The position numbers were made by a program, and so were the translations under genes. DNA of 64,000 bases, taken from assembly GCF_008831285.2 (NCBI RefSeq), contig NC_045143.1, positions 18,317,655 through 18,381,654 of the forward strand, written 5' to 3'. How positions within the stretch are numbered: position 1 is the stretch's first letter; every line of letters starts with the position of its first letter. Source of the DNA: Nymphaea colorata (lineage: Eukaryota; Streptophyta; Magnoliopsida; Nymphaeales; Nymphaeaceae). Shown here piece after piece: positions 201 through 64,000 of the stretch. The notes under the pieces were generated by a model that had not been told where the DNA came from, searched no databases, and worked only from the letters and a program-made list of their open reading frames with translations.

Positions 201-292
201 AGGTCAAGACTCATTTGTATATGTCTTGATAGCATAATTCATGAATTTGAGAATCATCTTGCCAATGTGTTCATCAAACAGGTGACTATTAA
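198..292 (+). pseudogene. 3' remnant of an unidentified gene, copy 1
   Basis: The stretch to the TGA near 292 aligns with the last part of the coding remnant at 60413-60751. Both end in a run reading ..KQVTI(N/S)-stop, preceded by an IIH-FE block. Here a two-base insertion near 226-230 breaks the frame, so this copy is dead. Before it (1-200) lies a degenerate tandem repeat of AAAGGTCAGGACTG/ATTACCAAAAAGATAAAGAC-like units that may have grown from the same gene (its ITITKQQDKG part looks similar). The family is not recognised. Confidence 0.45.
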
Positions 293-991: not shown

Positions 992-995
<4 letters not shown>

Positions 996-1027
<32 letters not shown>

Positions 1028-1133
1028 AAAAGAGAGAGCCGATAAAATGGAAATATATAACAAAATCTGGGGACAAGAGGTCCCCTAAATACAAAAAGAA
1101 AGAGAGAGAAAGAGAAAGAGAGAGAGAGAGAGA
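996..1133. repeat. Two (GA)n microsatellites
   Basis: GA-rich runs at about 996-1038 and 1096-1133 in the distal promoter. The first corresponds to a short GA run near 61416-61429 in the second flank copy, so its length has changed since the duplication. Confidence 0.8.

Positions 1134-2447: not shown

Positions 2448-2451
<4 letters not shown>

Positions 2452-2488
<37 letters not shown>
2452..2488. repeat. (TA)n microsatellite
   Basis: Uninterrupted TA dinucleotides of about 37 bp. The corresponding place in the second flank copy (near 63350) has no such run. Confidence 0.85.
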
Positions 2489-2490
<2 letters not shown>

Positions 2491-3209
2491 AAACAGGTAG
2501 CCATCAAACTCTTACATGCTAGACAGAGTGTGAATAATATGGGCCACCGAAGCTGCGAAGGGAGATCGGATGATGGAATATAACCTTAAAAAAATACAAA
2601 GCACGTTGTATTTTCAAAAGACTAAAATACTGTACATACAAGGAGATAAAGAAGTTGCCTTAATGGAGATCCCTTTGTTTTCTTTGAGGGGTTTTTGGTC
2701 TCCCTTGAAAAGATCAAAATATTGCTTGATTTCTATTTTTTTTTTAACATAGTATCTACCATTCAATCTCCATAAAATCTGCAACAGCCCATATGATTCC
2801 TATCCAACCTGCTATAGAAGGGTTCCTAGCTAGAGGATTTGTATTGGAATGCTTTCATATTCAGGTGTCATATAAGGTGGCAGCACCTACAAAAGAAACA
2901 TTATTGCATCTTTATTTCGACGAATTTCCTTTTAATTGAATTATTAGGGCACATGACTGAGCAGAATAAGACGTAGTGCAAAAGATTATCAGATGATTCA
3001 TTATTCATGTTTCAGTAACTATGGACTGGTTCAAAAAGAGACGGCAAGATCCAGCTAAATAGAAGCTGGACTCATCTGTGCCACAGATATAATATTGAAT
3101 TTTAATGTATATAGTTTTGTTGTCCCGATCAAGTCCAAATGAAAATTTTTTCAAGTTTGATAAGGTAATTTTTTTACTTTTTGAAACTTAGGGGAGATAT
3201 CTACATTCA

Positions 3210-3217
3210 TGACGTCA
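3210..3217. promoter_or_regulatory. TGACGTCA palindrome (bZIP C-box type)
   Basis: A perfect TGACGTCA palindrome sits about 480 bp before the GH1 ATG. It is the core bound by TGA/bZIP factors in plants. Binding is inferred; an 8-mer can occur by chance. Confidence 0.35.
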
Positions 3218-3580
3218 CGCACCCAATTGCACGGCGTTCCTTGTAGATGACGAGATGGTGCTCTGACGAATTTATTGATGGTCATGGATTACATGGATGG
3301 AAGGAAAGTACTCTTTCTCCTTGAATAAGGTTGTAACTCATGGAGGTATATATTTGTAATGGCTTAATAGAAGCTTTTCAATTTGATTTTTGATGTACTG
3401 GCTGTTCTCACGAGTATTTCCATTGGGACGATTTTATTTTTGTCAGGAAGTGCATATTTCTTTTTCATCCTTTATTTTTAGCATTTCTCATATTTTAGAT
3501 GAGGAAGTTGTCCTTCAGCCGAAACAAAAGAAAAGGGAAAAAAAAAAAAAATGAGACCTAAGAGTTGTCTGATAGGTATC

Positions 3581-3586
3581 TTGACC
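3581..3586 (+). promoter_or_regulatory. W-box core TTGACC
   Basis: TTGACC, the WRKY-binding core, occurs 70 bp before the TATA box. Short motif, so weak evidence alone, but the position is proximal and GH1 genes are often defence-linked. Confidence 0.25.
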
Positions 3587-3650
3587 GTCACAGATGTCTG
3601 GCTGGAAAGCGTGGCGTAACCATTTACTGCTACCATCTACCGGAGAAGGC

Positions 3651-3657
3651 TATAAAT
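3651..3657 (+). promoter_or_regulatory. TATA box of the GH1 gene
   Basis: TATAAAT lies 45 bp before the chosen ATG. Usual TATA-to-start spacing would put transcription initiation near 3680-3685, so the 5' UTR would be very short. Inferred from spacing only. Confidence 0.55.
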
Positions 3658-3695
3658 CAATACGAAACACCGGTTTTCTACAACATGTTCCTAAA

Positions 3696-18750
<15,055 letters not shown>

Positions 18751-19939: not shown

Positions 19940-20140
19940 AATCATGAGAGAATTTCGTTTCTCATTTTGGAATCAAAATTCCACCACAAACTGGAATTGG
20001 AATGAAAATTTCACTTCTAGTTTCTTGTGCCATTTGAAAGCATGGAATTTCAATTTTAGAATTACCAATAACATGTACGACGAAAGGAGAATTAGAATTT
20101 TTGAATTAAAATAAAGTTACTATTAGATTCCTTTCAAACT
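19940..20140. repeat. Dispersed AT-rich repeat, copy 2
   Basis: Partner of 6370-6660 in intron 4, same word order. Ends undefined. Confidence 0.5.
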
Positions 20141-20149
20141 CATAACTAT

Positions 20150-40547: not shown

Positions 40548-41001
40548 TGATAAAAATCTAGCACCAATATCTGTAACCAGAAAACAGCACTCACACAGGA
40601 AGATAGAGATAGAGAGAGAGAGAGAGGGAGAGAGAGAATGAAAACAAGAAGAAACTGAGGAGAAGAAGCCGTAGCCAAAATGCTTTGCACGGCCTCTATT
40701 TATAATCCCATTTCCGGAATTCTAAGAGTCTCCAATCGTAGAATCCTAGGAGATTTCACAAGCTCCAAGGACATTAATTACATCATAGAAACCTAAGAGA
40801 CTTCACATATTACAAGGATATTAACTACAACATAGAATCCTATGAGACTTCTCATATAACAAGGATATTAACTACAATATAGAATCCTAGGAGACTCTTC
40901 ACATGTTACAAGGACATTAAATATCTTAACACATTTTACAAGGAGGTGGAATCCTAAGAGACTCCTCTTCAACGTGTTGGTGAAGGATTTATATTTTAAC
41001 A
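40548..41001 (-). repeat. 3' LTR of the Copia element
   Basis: 454 bp, the right-hand LTR in element orientation. Contains internal repeats of AAGGATATTAACTACAACATAGAATCC-like words (period about 55) and a GA tract. Confidence 0.93.
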
Positions 41002-41072
41002 CCCTCCCTCAAGTTGTGCATGGTTTTGCACCATGTACAACTTGCCTTTTAGAAACCAGAATCGTTTCTTTG

Positions 41073-43020
41073 TTAATCCTTTTGTAAATAAGTTTGCAAC
41101 TTGTTATCTGTACGAACATAAATAGGCTGAATCTCCTTGTCTTCCACCTTTTGTCTAACAAAGTGTTGATCAATCTCAATGTGCTTTGTTCGACCACGTT
41201 GTACGGGATTAAAGGCAATGTTAATAGCGCTTTGATTATCGCACATTAACATTGATGTTTTAATCTTTTCTCCAATGTCTTCTAGCAAATATCTAACCCA
41301 TGTAACTTCAGCAGTACCTGCAGCCATGCATCTGTATTCAGCTTCAGTGCTGGATCTTGCTACTCCCTTTTGCTTTCGACAACTCCAAGACACAAGATTA
41401 CGTCCAATGAAAATACAAAAACCAGAAATGGACTTTCTTTGATCGGGATCTCCAGCCCAATCTGCATCTGTGAATGTCATAAGTTGATGTCCAGTAGTTA
41501 TATTTTTACTCTTACCATAAACTAAGCCATCTCCTGCTGTCCCTTTGAGATATCTTAATATTCTTTTAACAGCATCCATGTGAGTATCTCTAGGTGCATA
41601 CATAAATTGAGATACTTGATTCACAGCATATATAATATATGGTCTAGTAAATGTAAGATATTGAAGTGCCCCAACAATACTTCGATATTGCGTAGGATCT
41701 TCATATAACTCCCCATCTTGAGCACTTAGTCTTTGATTTAGAACACTAGGAGTTCCAACAGGCTTACAATCAGACATACCTGACTTTTTCAGCAGATCCA
41801 ACGTGTATTTCTGTTGTGTCAATGTGAGGCGATTATTGTGCCTATCAATCTCCACTCCAAGAAAGAATCGTAAATCACCAAGCTCTTTCATTTTGAAGTT
41901 TTGCATCATCAAAACTTTAGCTTCTTCTATATGTTTTTCTGAATTGCCTGTGATAACAATATCATCAACATATATAAGAAGTAAAGTAAATATATTTTCC
42001 TTTCGATAAATGAAAAGGGAGTGATCTAGAGGACATCTCCGAAAACCACATTCTTGAATCTTGCAAGAGAAACTGTCAAACCATGAACGTGAGGCCTGTT
42101 TAAGTCCATAAATAGATTTTATTAGTTTGCAAACCCATGCATGAGAGTCTCCTTTCGTGTATCTTGGAGGTTGTTCCATATATACTTCCTCCCTTAAATC
42201 ACCATGAAGAAAAGCATTCTTCACGTCCATTTGATGTAGTCTCCATCCATATTCAACTGCCAATGATATAATCACGCAAATTGTTCCCATTTTGATCACA
42301 GGGCTGAATGTCTCATCATAATCTTCTCCATATTGTTGTGTAAACCCTTTTGCTACTAACCTTGCTTTGTGTCTTTCTATGCTGCCGTCAGGTTTGTATT
42401 TAATTTTGTATACCCATTTGGAGCCCACTACGTTCTTTTCGTGTGGCCTCGGAACGATCTCCCATGTTCCACATTCATGCAAGGCATCCATTTCTTCTTT
42501 CATAGCCTTTCTCCAATGATGTGATTTTGATGCTTGATCAAATGAAGTAGGTTCTTCCTCCTTGCCAACTTTTGCCATGAATAACTGAAAATCAAGTGAT
42601 AAAGAATCATAGCTAACCCACCTGTGAATGGGATGACGAATGCGTTGGGATCTTCTAAGGTGGGGCATGTTGTCTTCTTCACTGTGAGCATCTTTGTCCC
42701 TTAGTCGTCGACTGTAGATAAGACCCGAATACCGATGTGCATCGTTGCTCTGTTCTTCATTATTGTTTTCGTGATGACTTGATGACTGTGTTGGATCTTC
42801 TTGATTTTCACTTTGAGCCATATCTGACGGTTGTATTGCTCTCTCTGAGTCTTCACTTTGAGGCACATCATTTTCTATAACAGGATCTGCATTGAATAAC
42901 TGTGTACTGGTCCAGGGATCATAAGATTCAATGGTCATAGGCATTTCATTTGTATTATCAAAACTATGTTCATCAAAAATGACATTTCTTGAAGTTTTGA
43001 TACGTTTAGTTGTTGGATCA
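41073..43020 (-). pseudogene. Copia reverse transcriptase and RNase H part of pol
   Basis: Follows the integrase part in the same frame after the TGA. RT blocks: VGSKWVYKIKYKPDGSIERH, ARLVAKGFTQ, QMDVKNAFLHGDL, YGLKQASRSWF and the catalytic YVDDIVITG. RNase H: TDADWAGDPDQRKS, SSTEAEYRCMA, CDNQSAI and RTKHIEIDQHFVR. A one-base slip near DNKL shifts the last codons; in the other frame the usual FTKGL tail follows to the polypurine tract. All RT and RNase H active-site residues survive. Confidence 0.88.
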
Positions 43021-43025
43021 TAGCA

Positions 43026-44009
43026 TCAAAAACCTTTATATTCATCAACATATCCAACGAATCTACATTGAATAGCTTTGTCTTGAAACTTGTTCCTCAA
43101 GGCAGCATCAACGTGAACATAGCATACATAACCAAAAACCTTCAAGTTCTTGTAATCAGGTTGTTTGCCTAAGAGTGTAAAATATGGCGATTTAGACATC
43201 AAGAGTGTCATAGGCAAACAATTTATTATGTATACAGCAGTATGGAAGGCTTCAGTCCACAAGGAAATGGGCACATTAGTATCATGCATCATGCTCATGG
43301 CGCTTTCAACTATATGTCGATGTTTCCGCTCAACTACACCATTTTGTTGTGGTGTGTAAGGGCAGGAAATTTGTCTAGTTATCCCTTTTTCACGTAGAAA
43401 TTCAATAAAATCAAGCGAGGAATATTCTCCCCCTCCATCACATTGAAAATACACCACATTGAATGAAAATTTAGTTTGAATCATGGCATAGAAGTTTCGA
43501 AATATGTGAGGTACTTCTGATTTGTGTTTCATGAAGTAAATCCAGGTGAAACGTGAGTAAGAGTCAATGAATAAGACATAATATCTTGACCCAGACATGG
43601 AATCAATAGGGGCTGGCCCCCATACATCAGAAAAAATAGTTTCAAAAGGTTTGGAAGCCCTTTGATTTATATTATGGAAAGGTAAAACATGACTCTTACA
43701 AAGTCCACAACTTGAACATTTTTTGACACTTGAAGTAAGAGGTAAACTTGATCTTGGAATGAGACTATCTGTGACAAGTTTTTCAATGAAATGTCGACCA
43801 CAGTGTCCTAGCCAACTATGACACAAATCAGACTCCAAAAATTGGTTAGGGCCCCTTACTTTTGATTGAAAATGGCAAGAACTTGGCACTGATGACGCAT
43901 TATGAGAAAGATAAAATGTCTTCAATCCTATATCAAAAGTGGATGAATTCTTGGGTAGACATTTCTTGAGGAAATACATATTCCCTTGACGCTCCTCTCT
44001 AGCGAACAT
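43026..44009 (-). pseudogene. Copia integrase part of pol
   Basis: Integrase with the HHCC zinc region (HSWLGH .. CSSCGLC), then the DDE core: FSDVWGP, FQCDGGGEYSS and TPQQNGVVERKHRH. It ends in an in-frame TGA (43026-43028) right after DEYKGF, where the family continues with an Arg codon, so CGA to TGA is likely. The frame is the same as the RT part downstream. Confidence 0.85.
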
Positions 44010-45412
44010 TTTCTTCGTTTGGAGATCCTTGGCATAGACAGAATAAGTGTGAATTCAACAGAAGAGCTTGTATCATCAATGAGTTTAGAAATGGATATGA
44101 TGTTCTTTTTGATATTGGGAGCAAGAACAACATTAGACAGCGATAGAGACGAGGATGACAATGGAATATGTGCATTTCCAATATGTGTAATAGGATGAGA
44201 TTTTCCATCACCTGTTATAATGCAACTTCTACCGTAATGAGGGGATAAGTTAGTCAATTTACCTGCATTTCCTGTCACATGGGTAGCTGCACCTGAATCC
44301 AAGAACCATTCTCCCTGCTCATTTTGCTTTATAGTCATCTTTGAGAATGCGGTCATCAATAGCTGTTGCATATCTTCAGCGGTGGATTTAGAACTTTGTC
44401 CTCCTTGTTTATAATCATGTCTTACCCCTTTGTTTTTATTTTGAGGATTAAACCAACATTGTGCCTTCATGTGTCCTTTCATGTTGCACTGAAAACAAAT
44501 TGGTATTTTTCTTGAAGTATCCAAAGGAGACATACCTTGGTTATGTGGTGTTGGTAGAATGCCACGACCACCATGGTTGGAGTTCCCATGGCTCTTACCA
44601 AACTTTGCATTCATAGCCAACACATTTTGGGAGTTCCCTTGATCAGTCATTTCAATGACTCTTTTCATATTCATTTCATGTTGGAGAAGTTTACCTTGTA
44701 GTTCGTTGAAGGAAGGCAGAACAGGAAGGACCTCAAGAGCTGTAATAAAAGCATGATAATCATGCCCAAGTCCATTCAAGGTTTGCTGCACCTTTTCCTT
44801 ATCAGAAATGTTATTCCATGAGGCTGCAAGTTGGTCTGCGACGGCCTTAATACGCCCCAAATAATCCATGATAGACGTTGAACCTTTGTTCAAATTCTGA
44901 AATTCTTTCTTTAAGTACATAATTCGAGCTTCTGATATTTGGGAAAAGGTATCAGCAAGGGTTTCCCATAATTCTTCTGCAGTACAATCATCAGAAACTG
45001 AAAGTAACACTTGTTGAGATAAAATTGACAAAATATATGCAACCAGACTTTGATCACGTCTCATCCACATAGCATGTTCAGGATTGTTGTCTTCATGAAC
45101 AGCAGTAACTTCTCCTGCCTCATTTTTTATTTCCTGTAAGACGGATATTGGTGGAGCCTTTGTTGAACCATCGAGATGTCCAAAGAGGCCTTGACTTCTT
45201 ATGAAAGGCATGATTTGCCTTTTCCAGATCAGATAATTCTCATGGTTGAGTTTTTCGGTAATAAGGTGAGGAAGAAAACTTGAGGACATGCCAGAATGCG
45301 AAAGGTTTTCCATGATAGCAGAAAGGAATGGTATATAGGTAGAAGATGAGAGGGAAAGAAGACACGATATAACAAGATGTGTCCTTGGGTAAGCAAGAAG
45401 AAAAAGGAACAA
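43928..45412 (-). CDS. Copia gag and protease ORF
   Basis: 494 codons from this ATG; the natural start is probably the later Met (MENLSHSGMSS..) about 33 codons in. Contains a UBN2-type gag domain (NYLIWKRQIMPFIRSQGLFG.., then ALEVLPVLPSF), the zinc knuckle CFQCNMKGHMKAQC (CX2CX4HX4C) and the protease motif WFLDSGAATHVTG. The last about 35 codons are out of frame: near 44045 the frame slips and the polyprotein continues in the frame of 43026-44009. Confidence 0.85.
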   Translation of the reverse strand: MFLFLLAYPRTHLVISCLLSLSSSTYIPFLSAIMENLSHSGMSSSFLPHLITEKLNHENYLIWKRQIMPFIRSQGLFGHLDGSTKAPPISVLQEIKNEAGEVTAVHEDNNPEHAMWMRRDQSLVAYILSILSQQVLLSVSDDCTAEELWETLADTFSQISEARIMYLKKEFQNLNKGSTSIMDYLGRIKAVADQLAASWNNISDKEKVQQTLNGLGHDYHAFITALEVLPVLPSFNELQGKLLQHEMNMKRVIEMTDQGNSQNVLAMNAKFGKSHGNSNHGGRGILPTPHNQGMSPLDTSRKIPICFQCNMKGHMKAQCWFNPQNKNKGVRHDYKQGGQSSKSTAEDMQQLLMTAFSKMTIKQNEQGEWFLDSGAATHVTGNAGKLTNLSPHYGRSCIITGDGKSHPITHIGNAHIPLSSSSLSLSNVVLAPNIKKNIISISKLIDDTSSSVEFTLILSMPRISKRRKCSLERSVKGICISSRNVYPRIHPLLI

Positions 45413-45534
45413 GAATTGCGCAAGAGAAAAGTAAATTCAGGATAGAGACAAGATGAGAAAAGAGTTCTAACCAGATCAGACCTGTTTGGGCATTTCGTTT
45501 GGTAGAGATAACGTAACCTGGTGCTCTGATACCA

Positions 45535-45984
45535 TGATAGAAATCTAGCACCAATATCTATAACCAGAAAACAGCACTCACGCAGGAAGATAGAGAGAGA
45601 AAGAGAGAGAGAAAAAAAAAATAAAAACAAGAAGAAAGTGAGGAGAAGAAGCCGTAGCCAAAATGGTTTGCACGGCCTCTATTTATAATCCCATTTCCAG
45701 AATTCTAAGAGTCTCCAATCGTAGAATCCTAAGAGATTTCACAAGCTCCAAGGACATTAATTACATCATAGAAACCTAAGAGACTTCACATATTACAAGG
45801 ATATTAACTACAACATAAAATCCTAGGAGACTTCTCATATAACAAAGATATTAACTACAACATAGAATCCTAGGAGACTCTTCACATGTTACAAAGACAT
45901 TAAATATCTTAACACATTCTACAAGGAGGTGGAATCCTAAGAGACTCCTCTTCAACGTGCTGGTGAAGGATTTATATTTTAACA
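45535..45984 (-). repeat. 5' LTR of the Copia element
   Basis: 450 bp, about 97% like the other LTR outside the GA tract. Should carry the promoter. The primer-binding site abuts it at about 45523-45534. Confidence 0.93.
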
Positions 45985-47711: not shown

Positions 47712-48341
47712 ACTGCCACTAAGCCTGGGCATCGGGCCCAGGTCGACGGGTACCCGGACTCGGGATTGGTTTTGAGAAGAAATCTGATTTCTGTAGGTCA
47801 GGTTGATGATGAGGGGTATGTCACCACGTTTCCTGGAGGATGTTGAATGATATCTATAGGTACGATTATTATAACAAGAGGAAACAAATCGAGTAATTTG
47901 TATATGACTGTAAACATTAAGGACATAGTGGCTGCAACAATGTGATGATAAAAATCTGAAAGTTTAGAAGATCCATCAGCCAATATAGTGCATCAACAGA
48001 ATTTCGAGATCACAACTACCAGGGAAACATTGAGCAGCAAAGAGGGCATTTAGGAAGCCGTCTTCAGGATAAAATGCTTACTTGTCATGCTTGTGACAAT
48101 CGTTGACACTTTGCTTCTCAATGTCGAACTGTATGTCAAGCTTGTAGGAAAACACGATATGGTGCATTGAACTACAAAATATACAAATGTCAAAAGGAAC
48201 CATCTTCTCCAGAGGCTTATCACATGGAATATGCCTCAAACTGATGAAGGATTTTGGTGTCTAGACACCGGTTCTACCCATCATGTGACTACAGACCTAA
48301 ACAATTTATCCATGCACTCAGAATATCATGGGTAAGATCAG

Positions 48342-48827
48342 TTGAGAGTTGGAAATGGTGTTGGCCTTCAAATCAAGAATGTTGGTAATTTTTTTATCTA
48401 TAGCTCAGACTCAAAAAATTTTATAAATAATGTGCTGCATGTTCCTACTATTTCCAAGAATCTACTATCTGTGCATAAATTTGCCCATGATAATAATGTT
48501 GTCTTTGAATTTGATGCAAATCGTTGCTATGTTAAGAATCGAACAACAAGAGAGAAACTTCTGGAAGGAGCAAATAAAGAACGTTTATATCACCTAAAGT
48601 TACAACAAGTTAAGCAGTGTGATGAAACTCGTCAGAAAGCAGCACTTATAGGAGAATGGGCCTCAGTTGATGATTGGCATAACCTGATGAGACAACTTGA
48701 CTTTAGAATTGTGATGCATGTGTTAAATAAATTTGACTTACCATTGGCAGCAAGGCTTGCAATAAGATATGCGATGCATGTCAAAAAAGGAAAAGCATGC
48801 TCTTACTTTTGCACCGACACAAAATAA
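48342..48827 (+). pseudogene. Copia protease end and pre-integrase fragment
   Basis: Reads NFINNVLHVPTISKNLLSVH and later NKERLYHL, the usual link between protease and the integrase zinc region. Shifts out of frame after about 48620. The integrase core (FTDVWGP at about 48857, PPANQQNGIIES at 49120) lies in other frames. Confidence 0.75.
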
Positions 48828-49185
48828 GATTGATGCTCTACTTGATTTCATTTTTACTGATGTTTGGGGACCATCAACTACTTCATCTTTACATGGTTAT
48901 AGTTACTATGTCAATTTTATAGTTGCATTCTCTTGATTTTCTTGGATATATATTATCAAAAATAGATCAGACGTGCTCTCTATTTTTAAAACTTTTCAAG
49001 TCATGGTAGAGCGGGCAATTTGATAGAAAAATTAAGGCCGTTCAGGTGATTGGGGAGGAGAGTATGAAATTGTTTCTAACTATCTCAAACAGATTGGCAT
49101 TGTTCATAGAGTTATTTGTCCACCTGCTAATCAACAAAATGGTATCATAGAAAGCAAAAATAGGCACATAGTTGACACAGGGCTG

Positions 49186-50619
49186 GTGCTTGTCACATAT
49201 GCTAATTTACCTTATACATATCAGGATTTTGCTTTTAAAATTGTTGTGTTCCTGATTAAGAGAATGCCAACTTGGGTTCTTCATATGAAGTCACCATATC
49301 AAGTCATGTTCAACAAATCCCCATATTATAAATTTTTAAAGGTCTTTGGATGTGCCTGCTGTCCATGTCTACGTGATTTCAACTCTCATAAATTGCAGTT
49401 TTGCAGCAAGCAATATGTCTTTTTTGGGTACAGCAACCAGCACAAAGGGTATATTTTCTTTGATCTGGGCACAAGCAAACTTCCTATTAGTAAACTTGTG
49501 GTATTTGATGAAAATTTATATCCCTTCAAAACCACGACATCAATAGCCAAACCCACCCACAATGAACTTACACCTAGACTACCCTTGGTCATAACTATGC
49601 CAACCCAAGCCGTGCCAGATCCACCCAACTTGACTCGTCTTTCAACCCAACCAACTTCTCCCATTCCTTCCTCATATCCCACCTTCCCCTGTACCCATGA
49701 TCCACCAATAGAACCTACACTACCAATAGCACCTGACCCTTCTATCGTCCCTTCACAACCACACCGCTCCCACACCATGCTCACTCGTTCCCAAACTGGT
49801 TCTCTGAAGCCCAAAACATATACCATCTCCAAATATCCTATTCCTGAAATCCATCTCACTCATCTAAACCTTGAAACCGAACCTCATAGTGTGTCTCAAG
49901 CTTTGAAACATATTCAGTGGGTCAACGCCATGAAAACAGAACTTGTAACTCTCACCAACAATAAAACATGGACTCTTGTCCTGAAGCCGTCCTCTGCTAA
50001 CATCATTGGTTCCAAATGTGTCTTTCGTATTAAGAGGAAAGCTAATGGCACACTTGAACGGTACAAGGCTCGCTTAGTCGCCAAGGGCTACACCCAAGAG
50101 CATGGTATTGACTACTTCAAAACCTTCAGTCTAGTAGTCAAACACACATCTATACGAGCCCTCCTCACGATTGTCATCACCTATGGATGGACTGTTCGTC
50201 AACTTGATGTTTACAGTGCATTCCTTCATGGAGTTCTCATTGAGAAGGTATATATGGCTCAACCCCCTGACTTCATTAATGACAAATTTCCCCACCACGT
50301 TTGTCAGTTGCATAAGGCCATTTATGGTTTAAAACAGTCTCCTTGTGTCTGGTTCCATCGCCTCACCACTTTTTTGGTCTCTTTGGGTTTCGTTGGGTCT
50401 AAGGTTGATCCTTCTCTCTTTATGCGGTTTTGGCAAGATTCTATGCTACATATTTTGATTTACATTGATGACATCATTATTACGTGCAACCATGCTACTA
50501 TGATTGAGTCCATTATTCATATTCTAGATCAAGAATTCGGCATCAAAGATCTTGGACTCCTTCACTATTTTTTGGGTATACAGGTGTTGTTCTCTTCCAA
50601 AGGTTGTTTCCTTCTCTAG
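49186..50619 (+). pseudogene. Copia integrase C-term and reverse transcriptase
   Basis: 477 codons open. Integrase C-terminal part (SPYQVMFNKSPYYKFLKVFG, VFFGYSNQHKGY), a Pro/Thr-rich linker (residues about 125-205), then RT: NIIGSKCVFRIKRKANG, RYKARLVAKGYTQEHG, RQLDVYSAFLHG, YGLKQSPCVWF and catalytic YIDDIIITC. It stops at the KGCFLL point where the family continues; the next RT part resumes in another frame. The Gly after the usual IIT is Cys. Confidence 0.85.
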
Positions 50620-50828
50620 AAAAATACATTCTTGATCTCCTCAGGAAAGCTAACATGGTTGATGCAAAGCCACACTTGACGCGTACGTCGACTTCCTTCA
50701 AACTGTCCAAACATGCTGGGGAACCCTTACTAGATCCTACTCCCTATTAGGAACTTGGTGGTGCATTACAGTATCTCACTCTTACACGACCTGAGCTCTC
50801 CTTTGCTGTTAACAAAGTTTGTCAATAT

Positions 50829-51436
50829 GTGCAGCATCCCACTATAGTCCACATGACTATGGTCAAACGTATTTTACGTTATGTTAAGGAAACATTATCC
50901 TCTGGTCTTTTCTTACAACCAGCCACCAATTTTCAAATTCATGCTTACACTAATGCAGATTGGGATGTTGATGATCGAAAGTCTACTAGAGGATTTGCTA
51001 TCTTCATGGGTTCGTCTCTTATCTCATGGTCTGCTCACAAACAGCCTACTATTGCTCGATCTAGTATCGAGGCAGAATATCGTGCTTTAGCTTCTTGTTC
51101 CTTTGAGGTGTAATGCTCACCTATTTACTTCAGGAATTGCACATCACCATGCCGCATGTTCCACATTTATGGTGTGATAATATAAGTGCATCCACCCTCT
51201 CTGCTAATCCTATGTTTCATAATAGAAGCAAGCACATTGAGATCGACGTCCATTTTTTTTTGGATCATATTGCGAAGAATCATCTTGAAGTTCACTATAT
51301 TCCTGGCACTGATCAATTGGTTGACATTCTTACAAAGCCTCTCACTCAAATTGCTTTTGAAAGCCTCCGCTTCAAACTAAACACTCTCTCTCGAGCGTTC
51401 ATCTTGCAGGGGGATAATAAGACACACAACAACTAA
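50829..51436 (+). pseudogene. Copia RNase H region
   Basis: Two frames: 50829-51113 (KRILRYVKETLSSGLFL, TNADWDVDDRKSTRGFAI, ARSSIEAEYRAL) and 51113-51436 (LWCDNISASTLSANP, HIEIDVHFFLDH, DQLVDILTKPL). They overlap at a frameshift and both belong to one RNase H domain. A CAGGGGG polypurine-like tract follows at 51407. Confidence 0.8.
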
Positions 51437-51720: not shown

Positions 51721-54610
51721 TCTATTCTAGTACAAGTTTTTGCACCATGTATCCATATTGATGGACCTATGGTTATGGAAGATGAAAACAAAGGTCTATT
51801 GGAGTCTATAATAGAGGATGAAATTAAAGAAGCTGTCATGGGTGCTGATGGTGATTCGGCTCCAAGGCCGGATGGCTTTAATTTCAGATTTTACCAGTCT
51901 AACTAGGAAGTGGTCAAAGGAGACATTTGAAATGTTGTTAGGGATTTCATTGTAAAACGCAGGCTGGTCCATAAAGCTAACCAGACGCACTTGGTACTCG
52001 TCCCCACGACGCCAAGAAATTCCCATATTTCAAATTTCAAGCCTATTTCTTTTTGAGTAATTGCTTGGTTAAAATTATTAATAGGGTGACGGTCAACAAG
52101 ATACAACTGATCCTTGGGAGGATGATTTCAGCCGACCAACATGCATTCCTTAAAGGTTGCAACATTCAAGAATGTTTTTTATTGGGCCAATGAAGTCATT
52201 CATTCCCTTGCCACTAGGGAAGGAAAGGCTTTGTGTTATAATCTTGATCTAAGTGAAGCTTATGATAAAGTTAGTTTGAATTTCCTAGAATTAGCTCTTC
52301 ACCAACTTGGGTTTGACAACAAGTAGATTGACAGGATTATGAATATTGTTAGTTTTGTGTCCATGGCAGTATTGGTTAATGGTAGGGAAGGACCCTGGTT
52401 TCAAGTGAAAAGGGAGCTTCGACAGGGTGTCCCGCTCTCTCCATACTTTTTTTTAGTGTTAGCAAAGATGATTAGTAGGAGCTTCAAGTAAGCTGTCCTA
52501 TGTAAGCAAGTTAGATTGCCACAAGCAGGAAAATTGAGAAACCCCATTTCATCTATCATGTTTGTTGTTGACTTCTTGTTTTTTTCAGCATATCATTGGC
52601 CATCCGTAAATTCAAAAAGCTGCCTTGGGAGACCGAAGTTAATTTGGGGTTGGTAGTTAGCCCAGAAAAAAGCCAGATGGTGGGGTTTAATGTTAGTAAA
52701 TTAGAGACCCAACAAGTGCCAAATGAGTTACAGTGAGCAGTTGGACCTACGCAGCTCAAGTAGTTGGGTTTACCACATCAAGTGGAGAATCTTTCCACTA
52801 GCCAGTGTCATGTCTTGCTGATTAAGATGGAAAGCAAACTAGCTGCCTGGAAGCAAAAAATCTTATCTTATTCGGGTTGATTGTGCATTGTTAAAAGCAT
52901 CTTGTCTATGATTTGCAACTACTAGAGTATGGTTCTCCGAATATTTAGTAGCACTATCAAACAGATTGAATGCTTATGCTCCAAATTTTTGTGGGTGATG
53001 ATGTTCAGAAGAGACACTTCCATCTAATCTGATGGTCCAAAGCTTGCTTTACGAAATCTGAAGGTGGCTTGGCCATTAGATGCCACAGGAAAGTCAATTA
53101 TGTGGCCTTTTAGCATTCACAGTTGTTCGAGCGCTATCTATCTACTGATTTGGCATGGGGTACTTATGTCAAGGGTAAGTATCTTAACAACTCAATTTTA
53201 TGGGACATAAACACAAACGCTTTGTATCTAATTGTTGGAAGGGTATGTTTAGAGTATGAAAACTCATTAGGGAGGATGTTGGCTGAAAAGTCAAGAGTGG
53301 ATCAATAGTCAAGTTTTGGAAAGACCAATGGTTGGAACGCCCACTTAACAGAAGTCCTAATTTACTTGCGGTGAACATGCAAGTGGCTCGGCCTAATGTT
53401 ATGGTCTACCAAATGGTGACCACATTGTACAATCAAGTGGAAGCTTTAATACAGTGTATGTTTCCCGACACACACTTTCCTTCCCCTGAATCTTTGGTTG
53501 AAGAAGTAGCAGATGAAATTGTTTGGAAAGGGAAAGGAAATGTTGTTGCTTCTAGGCACGAAATCTAGCAATATCTATACTCCAAAAGTCAGGTTGACCA
53601 TTCGAGGAAGACCATTTGGGTCGGGTTTGGGCCTCCTCGCTATATCTAGCATCAAAGAGAAGTTGCTAACAGATAATAACCTGCAGAAGAGGGGAATTAC
53701 TTTGGCATCCATGTGCTCCCTTTGTCAAGATGCAGGGGAATCAGTCACCCATTTGATTACTGGTTGCGAAGTGGTGAAGAGTGTGTGTAAGGTTTTGGCT
53801 TCTCGATGTGGCTCATGGCCTCTCCCTAGAGGATCCACTCAAGAAGCCTTCAAGGTTTGGGGGAAGAAGAAGAAATGTTACAAGCTTCTACATAAATGCA
53901 GATTAATTGTCTTCCATATTTTGGTTTGGTGTATGTGGCAACTGAGAAAGCAGTTAAGGCATGACACCAAACAATCAGAGGATCTATTGCAAAATGGGTA
54001 TGGGAACGGTGCATGGATTTTGTTTTCAACATGGAGGTAGATGGTCACTCTATGAAATGTTAGAAAATGTGGTCTCTTATAGGAATATGGATGGAAGGTT
54101 CGAGCCATAAGAGGGACAGTTGTGCGATAATTCTGATTATCATGTGGGAGAGGAACAACACTATGGGGTTAGCTGCTATGGTTAAATTGAGAAATGGTTC
54201 CATTCCTCTTGCAGTAGTCAAGTGGTCCAAGCCCTCAACCTCTATGGGTGAAACTTGGCTGTTGAATTTTTGTCTTGAGGTGGTCACTCAAGAGCATAAG
54301 CCGACTGTTGTCCAGGCCAATAACATGCGATGGCTGCAAGGGATCAACAGAGCTGCAAGAAGATACCTTAGGTTGATTGCTAAATACAACATGATTGGAC
54401 ATAATCTTGAATCATTACAGATTGACAACATGTACCCAGCCAATTGGGTTGGCCCATTTTTCTTGGCAGATGAAGGTAACCACTTTCAAGAGTGGAAGGA
54501 CCTCCCTGCAGATTGGGATGTAGTTGCAGTTTGCAAATGTTTAATGAGTCTCCATCCCCTTCTTGGGATACTATAATTTTTGCTGTAAATATATCATTTC
54601 TTATCAATAA
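51721..54610 (+). pseudogene. LINE (L1-type) pseudogene, 5'-truncated
   Basis: RT blocks in order: SAPRPDGFNFRFYQ (normally APGPDGF), SNFKPIS, LDLSEAYDKVSLNFLELAL, VLVNGREGPWF, RELRQGVPLSPYFF, then FVVDFLFF where the catalytic FADD is expected, SYSG..LCIVKSILS, and a zf-RVT region (KEKLLTDNNLQKRGI..SMCSLC..ESVTHLI..C) at 53640-53775. A diverged RNase H-like region follows to 54576 (QANNMRWLQGINRAARRYLR). AATAAA lies near 54606; no poly-A tail is clear. The endonuclease is missing and stops are frequent. Confidence 0.85.
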
Positions 54611-54699
54611 AGGTTGAGGGCCTAACCCTCTGCATGCACTTTCCGGAATTGAGTTACCTTTGATTTATTCTTGAATTTATTCAAGAGTATTTTCAGGAG

Positions 54700-55290
54700 G
54701 TGGAGCAAAGGAGAGAATGCTAAAATGGAATGCTCCTTAACTGCATTTTAAAAATAGATTAACTTTAATTCAACTGATCTTGTTTTAATTTGCAATCTTT
54801 GAAAATTATTTGAAATGATCAAAGAAAGCACGCCTAAATGTGCTGCTCTAATCTTTTTTTCTTTTTCTTTTTTTGAGAAAATGCAGCATTAACCAAGCTC
54901 GTTTGGAAATCATTGTGAATTATTTGAAAAGAGGGCTGCATCCAAAAGGAAGCTGCTCTCTTTAGTATTTTGAAAATATTACAGCTTAATGAAGCTGGTT
55001 TTGGGATTTTGATAATTTTCACAAATGATTTTGAAAATGAGATGAATAGAGTTAGAGGCAAGTGAGCTACTCCTTGATTGAATTTTGAAAACATTTCAAC
55101 TTTAACTATATTGGTTCTGTGTTTCAATTAAAATCATTCAAATTGGTTTTAAAGGAAAGCAAGAGAGAGCCACACATAAAATGTGGTTTCTCTTTTAAAT
55201 TGCTTTGGTTCTTAATTATAATCACTTAAAATGATTCTAAAGAAGAGAGAGAGATAGATGCCCAAGTGATGTCCTCTCTAATTGAATTGG
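54700..55290. repeat. Degenerate satellite, about 120-bp unit
   Basis: Four to five diverged units, each a TTTTGAAAA/AATTATTTGAAA stretch followed by a purine run and a word like GTGCTGCTCT, GAAGCTGCTCTC, GTGAGCTACTCC or GTGGTTTCTCT. No coding. Confidence 0.5.
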
Positions 55291-55671
55291 CTTCATTTTT
55301 AAGTGAAACCCTTTTTGTAGACTCAACTTTAGCTTCTCTCTTAATTATTTTCTTAGTTGGAATTTGATCATACTAAATAAAATTCTAATTTCCACCTTGA
55401 AATTTCTTGATTAATGATTTAGCAAGAGAATTAGATTCTCTTTAAAATTTTGAAATTCATTGACCTTCCTAGTCACACATGAGCTAGTTGAGTTTGGCAT
55501 CAGTCAAAGTCCCCCATGGCTTTGACTAGATTTCAATTTTTTATAATTTTCATTCTAGAACATAGATTTCTATTTAATTATAGTTGGAATCGCATTCTTG
55601 GTATTTTTCCAATTTTGAATACTCCTTTGATGGATGTGCATTAATCTAGTTGACTTTTTATAGAGCGTAGT

Positions 55672-56127
55672 TGTAACATCTAAAAAATTATCCCCTTATT
55701 AAAGATTGTGAGGGATCTTTGAAGACTTATAAATGAGGTTATTAAATAGTTGATTGTCCTGGTATTTAGCCTTCTTGGAGCTGGAGCTGCAACTACGAGA
55801 GGTTGGGTTCAGATCTACTAGACCAAGGGCCTTAGTCAGAGAGTGGGTTCGGTCGTTACAGTGATATCAGAACATGGTTCAACACTCAAACCTTGGGTCT
55901 CACACGCCCGAACGTGTGTGCCTTCAGATGAGTAGACTGTAACATCTCAAAAATTTGGTTTCATATTGAAGATTATGAGAGATCTTCAAGAGCTTATAAA
56001 GGGAGTTGTTAAATAGTTGGTTGCCTTAGTTTCTAACCTTTTTGGGGCTAGAAGTGAAACTGTTAGAGGGTGGATTGGGATCTGTCGGACCAAGGGTCCA
56101 AGCTTAGGAGTGGGTCAGGTCATTACA
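55672..56127 (+). mobile_element. TRIM element (miniature LTR retrotransposon)
   Basis: Two direct repeats of about 190 bp, 55672-55860 and 55938-56127. Both start TGTAACATCT and end TTACA. Right behind the first is GTGATATCAGAACATGG, two transitions from the Met-tRNA primer site TGGTATCAGAGC. The inner part is only 77 bp and codes for nothing. GTAGT before and ATAGT after are a 5-bp target duplication with one change. This fits a TRIM: short LTRs, primer site, no genes. No clear polypurine tract. Confidence 0.8.
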
Positions 56128-58510
56128 ATAGTTCATTTGCTTAATAAATCCAATTCTTTTGGCTTGTATGAATCAGATAATGCAATCACGTACTATGAAT
56201 TAACGTTTTAAATTCTTAACTTAGTTGAGATTAGGATTTTAAATCTCAACTGAAATTGAATTTAGATTTAACTCCTTGGTTTTGGTCCCAATTGATTTTT
56301 AGAGTTCTATTTTAGCTTGGGTTGAAATTGAATTTTAACTCTTGTAATCGTAATTGATTCACTCAAGTTCAGGATTGAATTGAGGGACATTGTGCTGCAA
56401 AATTTCCTAAATTGCCATTGAAATTTTTTTAAAAAAGTTTGGGGTGTTAACAATGTAGCATCAAACTGATAAGATGCCTCTATTGATTCAGCAAAGTAGT
56501 ATGGTTTCCCTAGTGGTCAGTAGAATTTTTAGTGATATGTTTCATTGTTCAGATGTTCAATGTCACGGCTATCATGTGCCAATCTCATTATTGACATTGA
56601 ATCCCTATGTTGCTAGAATGTAAGTTTAAATTCAATTTGGTTGAATCATGTGATGATTCAATGGACTAATATGAGAAAAGTTGCATAGAAACATTGACAA
56701 ACAAAAATGGTCAGATGTGTAAAATAAATATGATAATTTTCATTCTATTCTTTTATAATAGTTCATTAGTCACATCCTTGTTTGGGAATTATAAAACTGT
56801 CTATGTACATCTCTCTGTCTTTTGGGTAAGATCAAGTGGGAAATATTGAGGATATGAGTTTGACAATGATAATTGGTTCAACTTGTTTGTCTTTTTGGCA
56901 TTTCTCTAAGATATCACTTAACACTCATCAAAGAACTTTTTATTCTGTGTCTTTAGATGGTAAAACTGTTTTTTGGCATTTAGTCCCTGAAGTTATTTGT
57001 AGAGTGCGGCTTGTAAGAATTGATTTAAGTACCAGCAGACTCTAAGATGTGCATACACGTTTATAGAACATATCTAGAGAATATTAGCTTTTTTGCTATT
57101 TAAAAACACTTGGGCTCATTTTAAGGGAGTATAAGAAGTTTGAAATGAGATATTTTCTTACTTATTTCCTTTGTTTCCTGCTTTATTTATAGCTTTCGTT
57201 TCTTGTCACTTATTTTCAGCCCTTATTTTCTCGCTTTTCCTTCATTGCAGTTGAATTTAATATTTTTAATTAGTTAATATCAACAACAAACTTTTTGTTT
57301 CAGTACTTTGATTAGATTTTTGCAGTTTTTTATGTAAATACCTCTATAAAAGTTCACATTGAAAATGGTCTTTTTTCATAAATGACGGACATAATGGTGA
57401 CCAGTTTCACCACATTAGATGAACTGGTAAATTAAACTGGTCTCAATGACAGTGAAAACGACCACCAGTTTATATCGACGGCTTCCTTCTCCGATTTAAC
57501 AGTAGGTGAGGCTTGTACAGGTGAAAATAGCAATGGAAATTAATTCACCGGTACGACCGCTGTTAGCTATACATGATATCAAATCACCACTATAGGTTCT
57601 TGCAATATTATCTATAGCAGTGACTTCAGCAATGATTTCACACCACTGTATATCTTGCGTATACCGGTGAAAATCGATCACCGGTATAGGTTCTTTAAAT
57701 AATGGCCAATGTAAGATGAAAAACAAGAAAACGAGATAGATTATTATCGTCTTCCTATCCATGGTTTTTTTGCAATTCTTAATTGTTAATCGATTGCTCA
57801 CTCTAGTCTTGACATGAATTCTTGTGTCACCTTGTTTTTACTTGGAGGGCACTGCTGCACTTTGTCATCCTTGCAAAATACATGTAAGAGGATGTTAAAA
57901 AATCAAAGAATACCACAGCTCATTTTACGGAACAGGGTTATGGGTTAAAAAGGGTGTGACGCATCTTTCTTTGGACGTTTCATTTGAAAACTGCTTCCCC
58001 ACCTTCCCCGCACCACCCCCACCCCCTCCTAAAAAAAACACACACACACACACAATTTCTAGTATTTCTAAGAGCTTTTGATGAGGGTTTTTGTTGGTTT
58101 TTGAGAGAAATGTGGGTTCTGTAGTATGAAGACAAAATAGAAACAATTTATTTTTCTTTCACAGTTTATTTTGCATACATGGCAAAACAGAATTATCCAA
58201 TAACCAGCGATATTGTTAAAAAGGAATTTATCGTAAGAACAGATAGAGTCGTCAATTAAGAATAAGAATAAGAAAACTAAATATGGGAAGGAGGGCCATG
58301 ATTATTTTTTCTACTTCTTTTCCTTTTTCTTGTTCCTCTCACATCGTATAATACATATCATGTATGTTAAGGTGACCTATAATATATGCCTAAGATACAC
58401 TTTTTATGTGCATATCATAAGTGTATTGGGCATATCAGTTTTTTATTATTACCGTTGCAGTTGTCTTTTTTTTTTTTGGTTTATGCATGTTGCTTGCATG
58501 ATATCTAGAA
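56128..58510. other. Stretch without a recognisable gene
   Basis: Contains AT-rich non-coding sequence, an unassigned ORF at 56836-57045, repeated CACCGGT words with an inverted pair TACCGGTGA/TCACCGGTA near 57660-57685 (perhaps the end of a DNA transposon, 57370-57700), and a C-rich plus (AC)n tract at 58010-58053. Confidence 0.45.
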
Positions 58511-58625
58511 GTGCGTTTCTGTTGATGGAAGCACTCAAGGACCAATTCAGAGCATCTTTGCTACCTAGGTAGGAAAACCAACTTGCTTTACGTACTTATA
58601 AAGGACAATTAGCCCAACCCAAGTG
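58511..58625 (+). pseudogene. GH1 exon 12 / intron 12 relic
   Basis: CTGTTGATGGAAGCACTCAA followed by GGACCAA, then CATCTTTGCTACCT and GGTAGGAAAACCAACTTGC, matches exon 12 and the start of intron 12 of the intact gene (17825-17920). About 22 bp of the middle of the exon are missing, and the end of the exon is lost. Similarity may continue weakly into 58640-58760. It shows a former GH1 copy between the intact gene and the second promoter. Confidence 0.72.
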
Positions 58626-60412
58626 ATGTAATGTTTTTTATAATTCCCTTTCTTTAGTGGTCATCCGTATCTCCAAAACATCCTTTTAATAAAATATCTC
58701 AAATAATGCTCGCTTTTATTCTTGTAGAAATTTGGTAGGTTGAATAAAACAAAACAAAACCTTGATTAATTAAGTGCCTCTCTTTGGAGGTCTTCATTAT
58801 TTGGACAATGAAGTGGATACGATATATATAGTTATGCATGGCATTTGATTGATCAAGGAAGGTGAGAAAAAACCAAACACCAGACTAAAGAAAAGGAAGA
58901 TAATTATAACAACGCGTCACCCCTTATTAATAGGTGGGGCACGTGGGAAGGAAAGCTATGAAAAACATTTCTTCATATGAAGTAAGATGTGATGGCAATA
59001 TGTTTGAGAATTTCACCTTATGCTTCCACACAGACGTATGTATACATGTGCTTCAAGGCCGCTGGATTGGCAGTTTTATCAAAGTGTTTGGCTCGTATTA
59101 ATTATGCAAGCAAGAATGATCTCCCCTTTTCTTTTTGGATGTTAGGACGCATTTTTCCGTGTAATTTTCTTCCAATTCCTTTTTCCTTTCACAGATGTTA
59201 GGATGTCAGGCCACGGGAGCACATCTTTATACTCATGCCAAAGTGCTTCGCCACATATAGGGAGAGATGGGATGCCGTTTTCACAAGAAAGCAAAGGGAT
59301 TTCGCCCTCAATGACAAGCCAGTACCATAACTTTCACAATTTTAGCCTTCTTTGTCTATTGTTAGAAACAAGAAAACGCCTTCAAAGTGGCTAAAAACGG
59401 TAACCGTCCATATCATTCTGCACCTTGTGAATTCGTGGTCTCCATGACAGTAAAAAGAAAGAGAAAAAAAGAAGAAGAATAAGAAGGAAAGAAATATATT
59501 GGTAGTTGAAGATGAAACTTTATTAATCAGATGACACGATGAGCAAAAAGGAAGGCAAAATTATTTTGGGAAAAAAAGTGATTGATTTGATTGATTTGAT
59601 CTATAAAGATACTATATACAGTGCATTGCAGTGGAATCCTTTTTTGTAAAAAAAAAAAGTATGAATAAAGTAAAAAAGGAGGCTCTATTTGGTAATCCCC
59701 CAAAGACTGAGGCCAAAAGTGTAATAAGGTGGAGGACGTGGGAGAAATTTAATTATAAAGTCAAGGTAGACTAGTAGTTTGCTAATGAAACTAAACTGGA
59801 TCAACGGTCATTTAACTACAAAGAATGATAGAATAAAGAAGTTCAAGATTAAATGTTCCTCAATTAGCAGTTAATAATTGATTAAGTCTGGTGATAACTC
59901 TTCCCATTTTGGTCTTGAATATAATTGATATTATTTATTTGATTGCTTGCAAAAAATGATACGGTCAAAATCCACGACAATTTCACAATAAAAAGGTTAA
60001 TGACAATTTCACAATAAACTATTTTCACTACTTTTAAGTGGCAAATTAAAAAGTTTCATAACTTTCGCCCTCAATGACAAGCTAGATGATGCAACTGGGG
60101 TGAAATATCACTAGCCAAGGTTGGAAATTGAGCCCAGTTTGTTGGACCCACCTAATTGATCTATAAACGTCATGGTGGTATTACATCTACTGGCTTCCCA
60201 ACTTCATCCAACCCACTTATTAAATAGGTGCTTAATGGCTCCCACCTACATCACTCTCTAGCTACCAAACACTTTATGCTTGTGGTAGAGGAAACAGTGT
60301 TTGATTCGTGGAATAATTTGAAAACGTTTGGTTAATAGATTGTGACGGAGCAATTGTGGAAGTCTGACCTATTGCAAGTGATTGCTGCTTCCCGCTTCTG
60401 GGGGGAGAGACA
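58626..60412. other. Non-coding stretch before the unknown gene remnant
   Basis: No gene recognised. TTTCGCCCTCAATGACAAGC occurs twice (about 59301 and 60065), suggesting a small local duplication. Confidence 0.5.
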
Positions 60413-60751
60413 ATGATGACCATGAATTTGAAGAAAAAGGAAAAACCATGTTGCACTCCGTCAGGTGATCGTGTCACCCAATATTTAAAGGAACAATTGC
60501 AAGAGCTCCAGCACTAGAACCAGATCAAGTTTTTTGCGAAACTTCACTTTTTAGGAGGGACATCAATCAAAGAAATTGAACAAGAAATTCGCAATTTTGA
60601 TCTACCCAGAGTGAAGGAAGCACTGGACAAAGGAAGCGCAATAACCATTACCAAGCAACAGGATAAAGGGGCATTATATCTCGGGAACATAATCCATCAA
60701 TTTGAGGATTATCCTGCCAATCTGTTCATGAAGCAGGTTACTATTAGTTGA
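60413..60751 (+). pseudogene. Unidentified coding remnant, copy 2
   Basis: From ATG 60413 the frame runs 34 codons to TAG (60515-60517) and then, in the same frame, another 77 codons to TGA (60749-60751). The part after the TAG looks protein-like: FFAKLHFLGGTSIKEIEQEI, later LPRVKEALDKGSAITITKQ and GALYLGNIIHQFEDYPANLF. Composition is charged, no membrane segment, no motif I know. The other copy (198-292) keeps the last about 25 codons. It may be the 3' part of a larger gene truncated at 5', with the TAG a nonsense mutation, or the TAG may lie in an intron. Function unknown. Confidence 0.5.
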
Positions 60752-61492
60752 TGAAAAGGTGTTGCAATAAGATTTTTTTTTTTTTTCTTGGCTTCTTATG
60801 GAACGTGTTTGTCCCATTGGAGATGGATTGACAAACTAATCCTTATGGGAAGACTGCTGGAACAGGTACGTTGCTGGCAATTATATAACCCCAATCATAT
60901 TACCCTTAGTCCATGCAGTCCTGTTTTTCAAATACATATATATATATGCATGTAGTGCTGAAACTGTTGCTGAAGCGATTTGACAACAATTGTTGGTTGG
61001 TACTATTAATGTTGAAGCAGAGCACCATGACAAGTGCACTAGATCTCATTAGAACTCCCAAGATAAGCATGTAGTGAGAACAGCTGGAGTGGGGTGACCT
61101 TTTTGGAAGTCTTATGATCCGCCAGAAGTTAATTTACACCCAATAAATGGTTGTTTCATTGTAGTTAAAATTAAGATCAATATCGTCCTCGTCAGGACTG
61201 ACATTGTTAATACACTTGTGGGCGCACAAGCAAGACAAGAAATTATTAGCTTGCTTGAAAAAAAAAAAAAAATGTGGACGGCCGTGGCCAACAAAAGTAA
61301 AATGGAACAAAGCACTCATTCCAATTAAACTAAAACATACATTGGTTGGGTTTCGTCACGTCCTACATTGGTCATATCCAGTTGACAACTTAAAGTTTCT
61401 AATGATGCCAGCTTGAGAGAGAGAGAGAGGCCGATTTCTGGGTGACGTGGTCAATAGAGGGACATGAGTGAAGCTGGTTATATACGTCATCC

Positions 61493-61650
61493 TCATGCAC
61501 GAAATTTCATGCACCATTTTAATAATAACAAAAAATAAAATGTTCATTCATGTACGAAATTTCATGCACCATTTTAATAATAACCAAAAATGCTCATTCA
61601 TGTACGAAATTTCATTCACCATTTTAATAATGACAAAAAATGCTCATGAT
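61493..61650. repeat. Minisatellite, 50-55-bp unit, three copies
   Basis: GTACGAAATTTCATGCACCA with TTTTAATAATAAC follows in units starting near 61497, 61552 and 61602. Absent from the other flank copy. Confidence 0.85.
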
Positions 61651-61734
61651 TAATACAAAAAGAATAAAATGACAAAAAGAATCGATAAAAGTAAAATTAT
61701 ACCTATCGTTATATTTAATATACAGTAAAAAAAT

Positions 61735-62145
61735 GTTTTCATTTTTTTTATTTTGCTCATAACGTTATCTCATTATTTCATACATATTTTATTATCTCAT
61801 AAACATTATCTTATGTTTAGAGTTATCTCATACATCCACCTGTTAACTCATTGTTCATAAATATTTTATTATTTCATAAACATTATCTTATGTTTAGCAT
61901 TATCTCATACGTCCATCCGTTAACTCACTATTCATAAATACTTTATTATATCATAAACATTACCTCATACATCAGTCCATTACCTCATTATCTTGTACTT
62001 ATGTTTAGCATTATCTCATATATCTGTTTGTTATCTCATTATCTCATAAATCTATTATTATCTCATACTTATTTGTTATTTCATACTTATTTGTTATCTC
62101 ATGCACATGCATATGCAATATTTGGGCATAAAAAAATATGCATAT
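61735..62145. repeat. TTATCTCATA-based tandem repeat
   Basis: About a dozen variants of TTATCTCATA, partly organised in a higher unit of roughly 95 bp (CATAAACATTATCTTATG, TTAGCATTATCTCATAC, CCGTTAACTCA). Absent from the other flank copy. Confidence 0.75.
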
Positions 62146-64000
62146 TAATAATAGGGTACCTGAACTCACAGGTTTTGCTATTTCAATAGAGGGGAATTTT
62201 TTTTTTCGTATAAGAACTAGGAGAAGTAGCTCTTTTGAATTTCATTTTTATCCTTGTAGAGGGGAGTCTTCTTTTTAACAATCAACGGTGTTTTTGTCAT
62301 TTAGGGTCCCCAACACAATGTCTCATTAATTTAGGAGGCTAACATATATCGTGTCTTATTAAAGTCCGCACTCTACTTTTCTAGGCAGAGAGTTGAACGT
62401 TTCATGTTCCTTCAACATTTACCACTTCACGCTTGTTTAAGGAAATTATTAGTACGTTAATTTTTTTTTTTAAAAAAAAAAATAGAATGAAGCAAACGAC
62501 AACTCTCCAAGTCATTATTTGGCGGCTTTCATGAGAAATATAGCCCGGGTGCCTTGTAACGACTGAAAAGCAAGCAAGTCAAGTCAAGCACCATCTCACC
62601 ATCAATGCATGGATGCTGAGAATTTGAGGACTCATTAAATGACATTTTTTTATACGCATAAATTTTCAAATAAATGGAGGACGAGCTACAGTTTCCGTCT
62701 TTGAAAAGGAAGGCCACAAGTTCCCAAATTCAAAGGGAAGCTCGCCCTCATGACTAGGAAGGAGATAATTTGAGGACTTATCCAAAAAAAAAAAAAATAC
62801 TAGGACTTGCAATTCTTCTTCCATACCTTTAAGTCAATTGATGCTTATCCATGCCCACTATGATAACTTGTGGGGAACCATAGTTCAGCAAGTAGAACGG
62901 CCTGAAAATAGTATTTAACTACCAGTAGTTAAAAAACGGCTTTTTCTTGGGTACATATGGCTAATGCATACTAAATATGGATCAGAATAAAACATCATAC
63001 TTGTTACATTAATTGGTCTTGTACGTAGTTATTCTCAGCGATTAAAGTATTTGTAACTAGCATCGCCTGGAAATTTAGAAAATACAAATTTTACCTTCAA
63101 ACGAAATGAACCGCATGAACTTCTGATAAGACATTTCACACCTATCTCAAAAGAGATTAAGAAATAAATATATTTAGCAGTTGAACTTTAACAGTGAAAA
63201 GCATGAACATGATCCACCCCTTGAGTGGATTAACGCTCAAACTTCTTTAGCAGACCAATGTAGCAGCATAATAAATGGTGAACTTAGATTCAAGTGCTTC
63301 CAAACTATTTCCTATAAGGAAATGAAAATGCAATTATTATGATTAATTACCATCGTTATTATAATTATATCCATATGGAAAATTAGTAGAAATCAAACTC
63401 TTATATGCTAGAGTGGCTGGGAATAATATGGTGTATCGATTTTAGGGAGATTGGATAATGGAAAACATCCCTAAAAGGGTAGAAAGCAGGCTGTATTTTC
63501 AAATGATTCCAATACCCCACATATGAGGAAATAAATAAGTTTTCTTAATTAAGATCCCTTGTCTTTTTTCCGGGTATTTAGTCTTTCTTGAAAATACAGT
63601 TTGGTTTCCATTCTTTTTAAACCATCCAATCTCCTTAAAGTCTGCGGCCATATGATTTCATATGATGGAATGCTTTCATACGAAGGTGCCATACAAGGTG
63701 GCAGACAATATCGTTGCATCTTCGTTGCAGCTTTCCTTTCAATTGAATTATTAGTGCACAAGAGTGAGCAGAACGAGACTTGTAGCACAAAGATTACGAG
63801 ATGAAACACGTTTTATGGCCCACCACCAAACTATGAAATGATTTAAAAAGAGACGACAAGATTCAGCTCAATAGAAGCTGGACGCCTAGGTGCCAAAGAA
63901 ATAATATTGAAGATTAACGGTTATGTTTGGTTGTCTTGATCAAGAACAAATGAAAACTTTGTTAAAACTTTTATGGTAAATTTTTATTTTTTGAAACTTA

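Follow-up and report, generated by a model that had tools for sequence, protein, structure and literature searches.

What does a second, partial copy of the region in front of a gene announce when it runs off the end of a sequence window: another gene just out of sight, or merely a remnant of one; and is the likeness of the two regions that of a promoter being conserved or that of a flank having been duplicated? These questions are raised by the last 3.3 kb of a 64,000-nucleotide stretch of Nymphaea colorata DNA (the whole of which is hereafter called the window), from which a sequence-only reading had predicted that a glycoside hydrolase family 1 (GH1) gene starts outside the window. The window was placed at C6:18317655-18381654 by a whole-genome search, and sequence was fetched both past its end (C6:18380655-18580654, 200 kb, the first 1,000 bases of which exactly repeat the window end, extending the window by 199 kb) and for 10 kb before it; coordinates above 64000 continue those of the window, and sequence preceding it carries negative numbers. 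With this sequence at hand, four intact GH1 beta-glucosidase genes (copies A to D hereafter) are seen to lie in tandem, and the window almost certainly ends in the 5' flank of the second one.

The two regions in question are the one upstream of copy A (1-3695, + strand) and the one upstream of copy B (60083-64000 within the window and on to 64736, + strand), both delimited by self-comparison and by alignment to one another. That the end of the window is collinear with the region before its GH1 gene is borne out by four blocks of the self-comparison (220-467/60675-60945 at 76%, 540-1010/60941-61429 at 67%, 1218-2207/62233-63194 at 74% and 2285-3190/63193-64000 at 69% identity; E-values from 2.5e-27 to 0), and the likeness does continue down to the last bases, as had been noticed: TTTTTGAAACTTA occurs twice in the window, at 3178 and 63988, the latter occurrence ending at 64000 as described and the former at 3190 instead of 3193. 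Global alignment of both regions up to their respective ATGs (including the last 736 bp of the copy B region, which lie outside the window) gave 76.2% identity over 3,138 columns, compared with 43-44% for three unrelated window stretches subjected to the same procedure. Copy B carries about 800 bp (61430-62232) opposite 207 bp in copy A. The start of the shared block, previously put at 60663, had to be moved, as a match between 60083-60654 and -922 to -333 (85% identical) precedes that point; the block only appears to start near 60663 because the window itself begins there, and it extends before the window to at least -922 when compared with copy B and to -2270 when compared with copy C, the flank of which is 79% identical over -2270 to -573. 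A neighbouring gene upstream of copy B, suggested by a stretch near 60440-60750 that looks open, was considered and rejected, given a stop in B, frame shifts between A and B and nothing found there by Pfam.

Copy A (3696-18750, + strand) consists of 13 exons, the first seven at 3696-3857, 3966-4035, 4196-4254, 4577-4652, 9393-9470, 10048-10135 and 11723-11975, and the remaining six at 13226-13341, 13940-14160, 16604-16635, 17581-17683, 17787-17895 and 18582-18750, which together encode 511 aa. Copy B (64737-76708, 510 aa) is the gene whose existence beyond the window had been foretold, although its ATG lies 737 bp past position 64000, not the roughly 500 bp that had been estimated; exons 1 and 2 (64737-64895 and 64975-65044, + strand) are both present within the next 1.5 kb, where they had been expected, and exon 1 ends in TASASYQ, the exon end having been anticipated as TASSSYQ-like. 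An unseen gene was, in other words, correctly predicted from raw sequence. It is followed by copy C (119127-134585, 13 exons, 510 residues) and copy D (188835-200364, 13 exons, 512 residues), all four sharing the + strand of one contig, twelve common intron positions with AG/GT intron ends and, exon 1 excepted, equal exon lengths, with no internal stop in any of them. Pairwise, the proteins are 88-92% identical (dN 0.037-0.057, dS 0.22-0.31, dN/dS 0.15-0.24). The start codons are 61,041 (A-B), 54,390 (B-C) and 69,708 bp (C-D) apart, which agrees with the proposal of a tandem array with a unit of about 60 kb, and the duplicated flanks are collinear for A-B and partly so for A-C and B-C, this not being the case upstream of D.

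A whole-genome DNA search with window positions 3000-4000 returned six matches, all of them on copies A-D. The wider GH1 family search of the genome found at least 95 matches (93 of 150 first-look candidates having been scored, such counts are lower bounds), among them further GH1 genes on C1, C2, C5, C6 (near 15.3 Mb), C8, C10 and C11; a fifth copy adjoining the array was not seen among the matches listed. When last exons are measured by hand, clustered genes on C5, C10 and C11 turn out to be spaced 7-11 kb apart, as opposed to 58-66 kb here, and it is this long spacing that distinguishes the array from them.

How much of the shared upstream sequence, then, has to be regarded as promoter? To speak of a second "promoter of the same type", as the sequence-only reading did, is correct insofar as the two regions share their descent; over its full length, however, the block shows no better conservation than the introns do, and copy D has only its last 85 bp in common with A. 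The A-B introns are 79.5% identical (6,184 columns from 11 of the 12 introns, with intron 4, at 58%, left out), and both this value and the 76.2% of the upstream alignment fit a synonymous distance of 0.22. In copy D, the gene of which is intact, homology to the A upstream region starts at 188749, i.e., 86 bp before the ATG, and a search for the A upstream region across the 54-kb C-D interval returned nothing beyond the 85 bp before the D ATG. Because the block decays as introns do, and because only these 85 bp are common to A and D, it is best read, as far as sequence comparison can tell, as having been carried along in the duplication. That the whole of it is instead a promoter maintained by selection in each copy seems improbable to us: it would account for the 92% A-B identity of the 85 bp adjoining the ATG (a value reached by 2 of 615 overlapping upstream windows of that size, the median of which is 71%, and by none of the 1,576 windows taken from introns other than intron 4) and for windows starting at 1965-1995 being about equally conserved, yet it sits poorly with the block as a whole being no more conserved than the introns and with copy D having stayed intact with no more than 85 bp of it. 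A long upstream sequence common to tandem copies need not, therefore, imply a conserved promoter, and the array is useful in that it lets intron, upstream and synonymous divergence be compared. The windows starting at 1965-1995 are 89-93% identical between A and B, and the stretch they cover (1965-2085), about as conserved as the core promoter, is a possible regulatory element.

While the long block seems to have been inherited together with the gene, the short proximal core (3611-3695 in copy A, + strand, with TATAAAT at 3651), the sole upstream part common to A and D, may be under constraint. TATAAAT is found 45-47 bp before the ATG in all four copies, and the proximal 85 bp are 94% identical for B-D, 91% for A-B, 88% for A-D, 86% for B-C, 83% for C-D and 80% for A-C, the values for A-C and C-D being no better than neutral. 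In the other GH1 loci fetched (C8, C11 and three pieces of the C2 locus), no more than 17 bp of the core promoter could be aligned, in a comparison where exon 1 was recognised in the C11 gene alone and the start regions of the C8 and C2 genes may lie outside the sequence compared; the GH1 proteins of these loci are about 39-79% identical to those of the array per exon (a few weak off-frame matches being ignored).

The other two alternatives fare worse. That the second upstream region is an orphan which no working gene follows, be it a duplicated flank or a decayed pseudogene, was conceivable from the window alone, which ends before any exon of copy B, and a truncated GH1 copy (exons 5-6 only) is indeed located at 184969-185875, between C and D; copy B, however, with its 13 exons, AG/GT intron ends, uninterrupted frame and a dN/dS of 0.15-0.23 against the other three copies, refutes this at the level of sequence and leaves it next to no probability. 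A duplication produced by the assembly (unmerged haplotypes or misjoined contigs) is, in our estimation, just as improbable, considering that a dS of 0.22-0.31 and spacer differences of tens of kb far exceed ordinary allelic difference, and that the 200 kb of continued sequence are without N.

The spacing itself had been ascribed to a unit "mostly inflated by transposons", a statement that is partly substantiated for the A-B spacer and not for the B-C one. Downstream of copy A, the flank at 19945-22504 (+ strand) has a collinear counterpart behind copy B (82013-84316), after which the A-B spacer contains a 31-kb block (22505-53519, with no strand assigned) that is absent from the corresponding place between B and C. 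It harbours a structurally complete Ty1/copia LTR retrotransposon (40548-45984, - strand) with TG..CA ends and a 5-bp target-site duplication, GTTAT (ends and duplication read by eye), gag, integrase and reverse transcriptase domains over three open frames, with integrase before reverse transcriptase, and LTRs that are 94.5% identical. The divergence of these LTRs (K 0.057), set against the dS of 0.22, makes this insertion younger than the duplications. A decayed copia element follows (48336-51433, + strand; Pfam domains at 48336-50616, the last 0.8 kb recognised by eye), and at the right edge of the block lies a fragment with a zf-RVT domain (53510-54037, + strand), probably a piece of a LINE. 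Altogether, of the 41 kb at 18751-60082, only about 8 kb are recognised as copia sequence, in addition to the probable LINE fragment, with most of 22.5-40.5 kb assigned to no element, and the A-B spacer is likely to be mostly transposon-inflated. Open frames of at least 200 codons are absent from the B-C spacer: all ten that were found beyond the A-B spacer are located elsewhere, and six of the nine that were scanned have copia-type domains, one at a distance of 1.7 kb in front of D and the other five past it.

The idea that 22505-53519 came in as one clean insertion of 31 kb was also considered and rejected: the junction has a 6-bp overlap in which no convincing target-site duplication was seen; with zf-RVT retrotransposon sequence on its right side, it may just as well mark where a LINE copy ends, and what we claim for the block is limited to its absence from the B-C spacer. 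Also lying within this A-specific block, beside AT repeats, is a perfect 124-nt inverted repeat (32092-32215/32273-32396) with a 57-nt gap. Further along, the spacer part at 53520-58909 is 85-89% alike to 84311-96741 of the continued sequence, which is above the 74-79% of the flanks and is thus not explained by a single duplication age; it may represent either a repeat family or later homogenisation.

No consistent grouping of the copies by introns was found, and over all 13 exons the informative sites favour A+D at 23 positions, A+B at 10 and A+C at 7. Of the 17 informative sites in exons 1 and 9, 16 group A+D vs B+C, whereas in exon 7 six of nine sites group A+C vs B+D; all six lie within 51 bp (11789-11839 in the window) that coincide with the catalytic TLNEP and closely follow it, and three of them are on adjacent bases. 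Fisher's test for this contrast (exon 7 vs exons 1 and 9) gives p 7e-5, a value to be read with the exons having been picked post hoc and adjacent sites being non-independent, and the A+C vs B+D pattern is not continued in the flanks of exon 7. That the copies swap short exon patches by gene conversion is a tentative idea and, in our estimation, an unlikely one; convergent selection is another reading of the exon 7 pattern. If gene conversion were nevertheless at work, the array would be reshuffling part of the active-site region between paralogues that have one core promoter in common.

As for what the genes encode, the two copies scanned match the Pfam family Glyco_hydro_1 (PF00232) nearly end to end (E 4.4e-161 for A and 1.1e-161 for B; profile positions 3-448 of 453). 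GH1 enzymes carry their acid/base Glu in T(L/F)NEP and their nucleophile Glu in ITENG, and both TLNEP and ITENG are intact in all four copies, each of which also has a hydrophobic N-terminus. Among solved structures, the best relative of copy B is rice Os4BGlu12 (PDB 3ptk; E 1.5e-225, residues 32-508, 753 bits), followed by beta-primeverosidase (PDB 3wq4; E 1.4e-215, 720 bits), which is a disaccharide-releasing enzyme, a 994-residue chain named Beta-Glucosidase (704 bits) and a cyanogenic beta-glucosidase (686 bits). Identity as a strictosidine glucosidase found no support, the two such enzymes among the structures listed scoring 614 and 533 bits against copy B vs the 753 of Os4BGlu12. The products are, judging by these relatives, most likely secreted enzymes freeing aglycones from glucosides, be it for hormone activation or for defence.

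The history of the locus that best fits these findings begins with a unit comprising the gene and several kb of flank on each side, duplicated more than once, most likely through unequal crossing-over. The copies then drifted to their present synonymous distance of 0.22-0.31, with purifying selection keeping all four proteins intact, and the spacers and introns grew later by insertions, LTR retrotransposons included, up to the present 54-70 kb spacing. Each gene is probably transcribed from a core whose TATA box precedes the ATG by 45-47 bp, and its product would be a retaining beta-glucosidase similar in type to Os4BGlu12, secreted and presumably freeing aglycones from glucosides.

None of this makes the array exceptional as such: it is ordinary tandem growth of the GH1 family, and clustered GH1 genes are already well known. 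No title on this array is found among the literature matches listed for Nymphaea and GH1. To GH1 biology, the array adds a further case in which genes of the Os4BGlu12 type have expanded locally. In rice, the Os4BGlu9-13 genes on chromosome 4 are likewise clustered locally and closely resemble one another, and two of them, Os4BGlu12 and Os4BGlu13, are described as the most active towards abscisic acid glucose ester (PMC8303963), whereas copies A-D are only predicted enzymes. The 13-exon, 12-intron structure seen in all four of them is the one reported as the commonest among rice GH1 genes (22 genes) and as probably ancestral, and the same account has closely related rice GH1 genes sitting on the same chromosomes and very long rice GH1 introns mostly containing retrotransposon-like sequence (PMC1781453). 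Brassica rapa, with 64 GH1 (BGLU) genes and ten tandem clusters, has tandem GH1 arrays as well, but of other subgroups, and the commonest structure there has 11 exons (PMC6480273).
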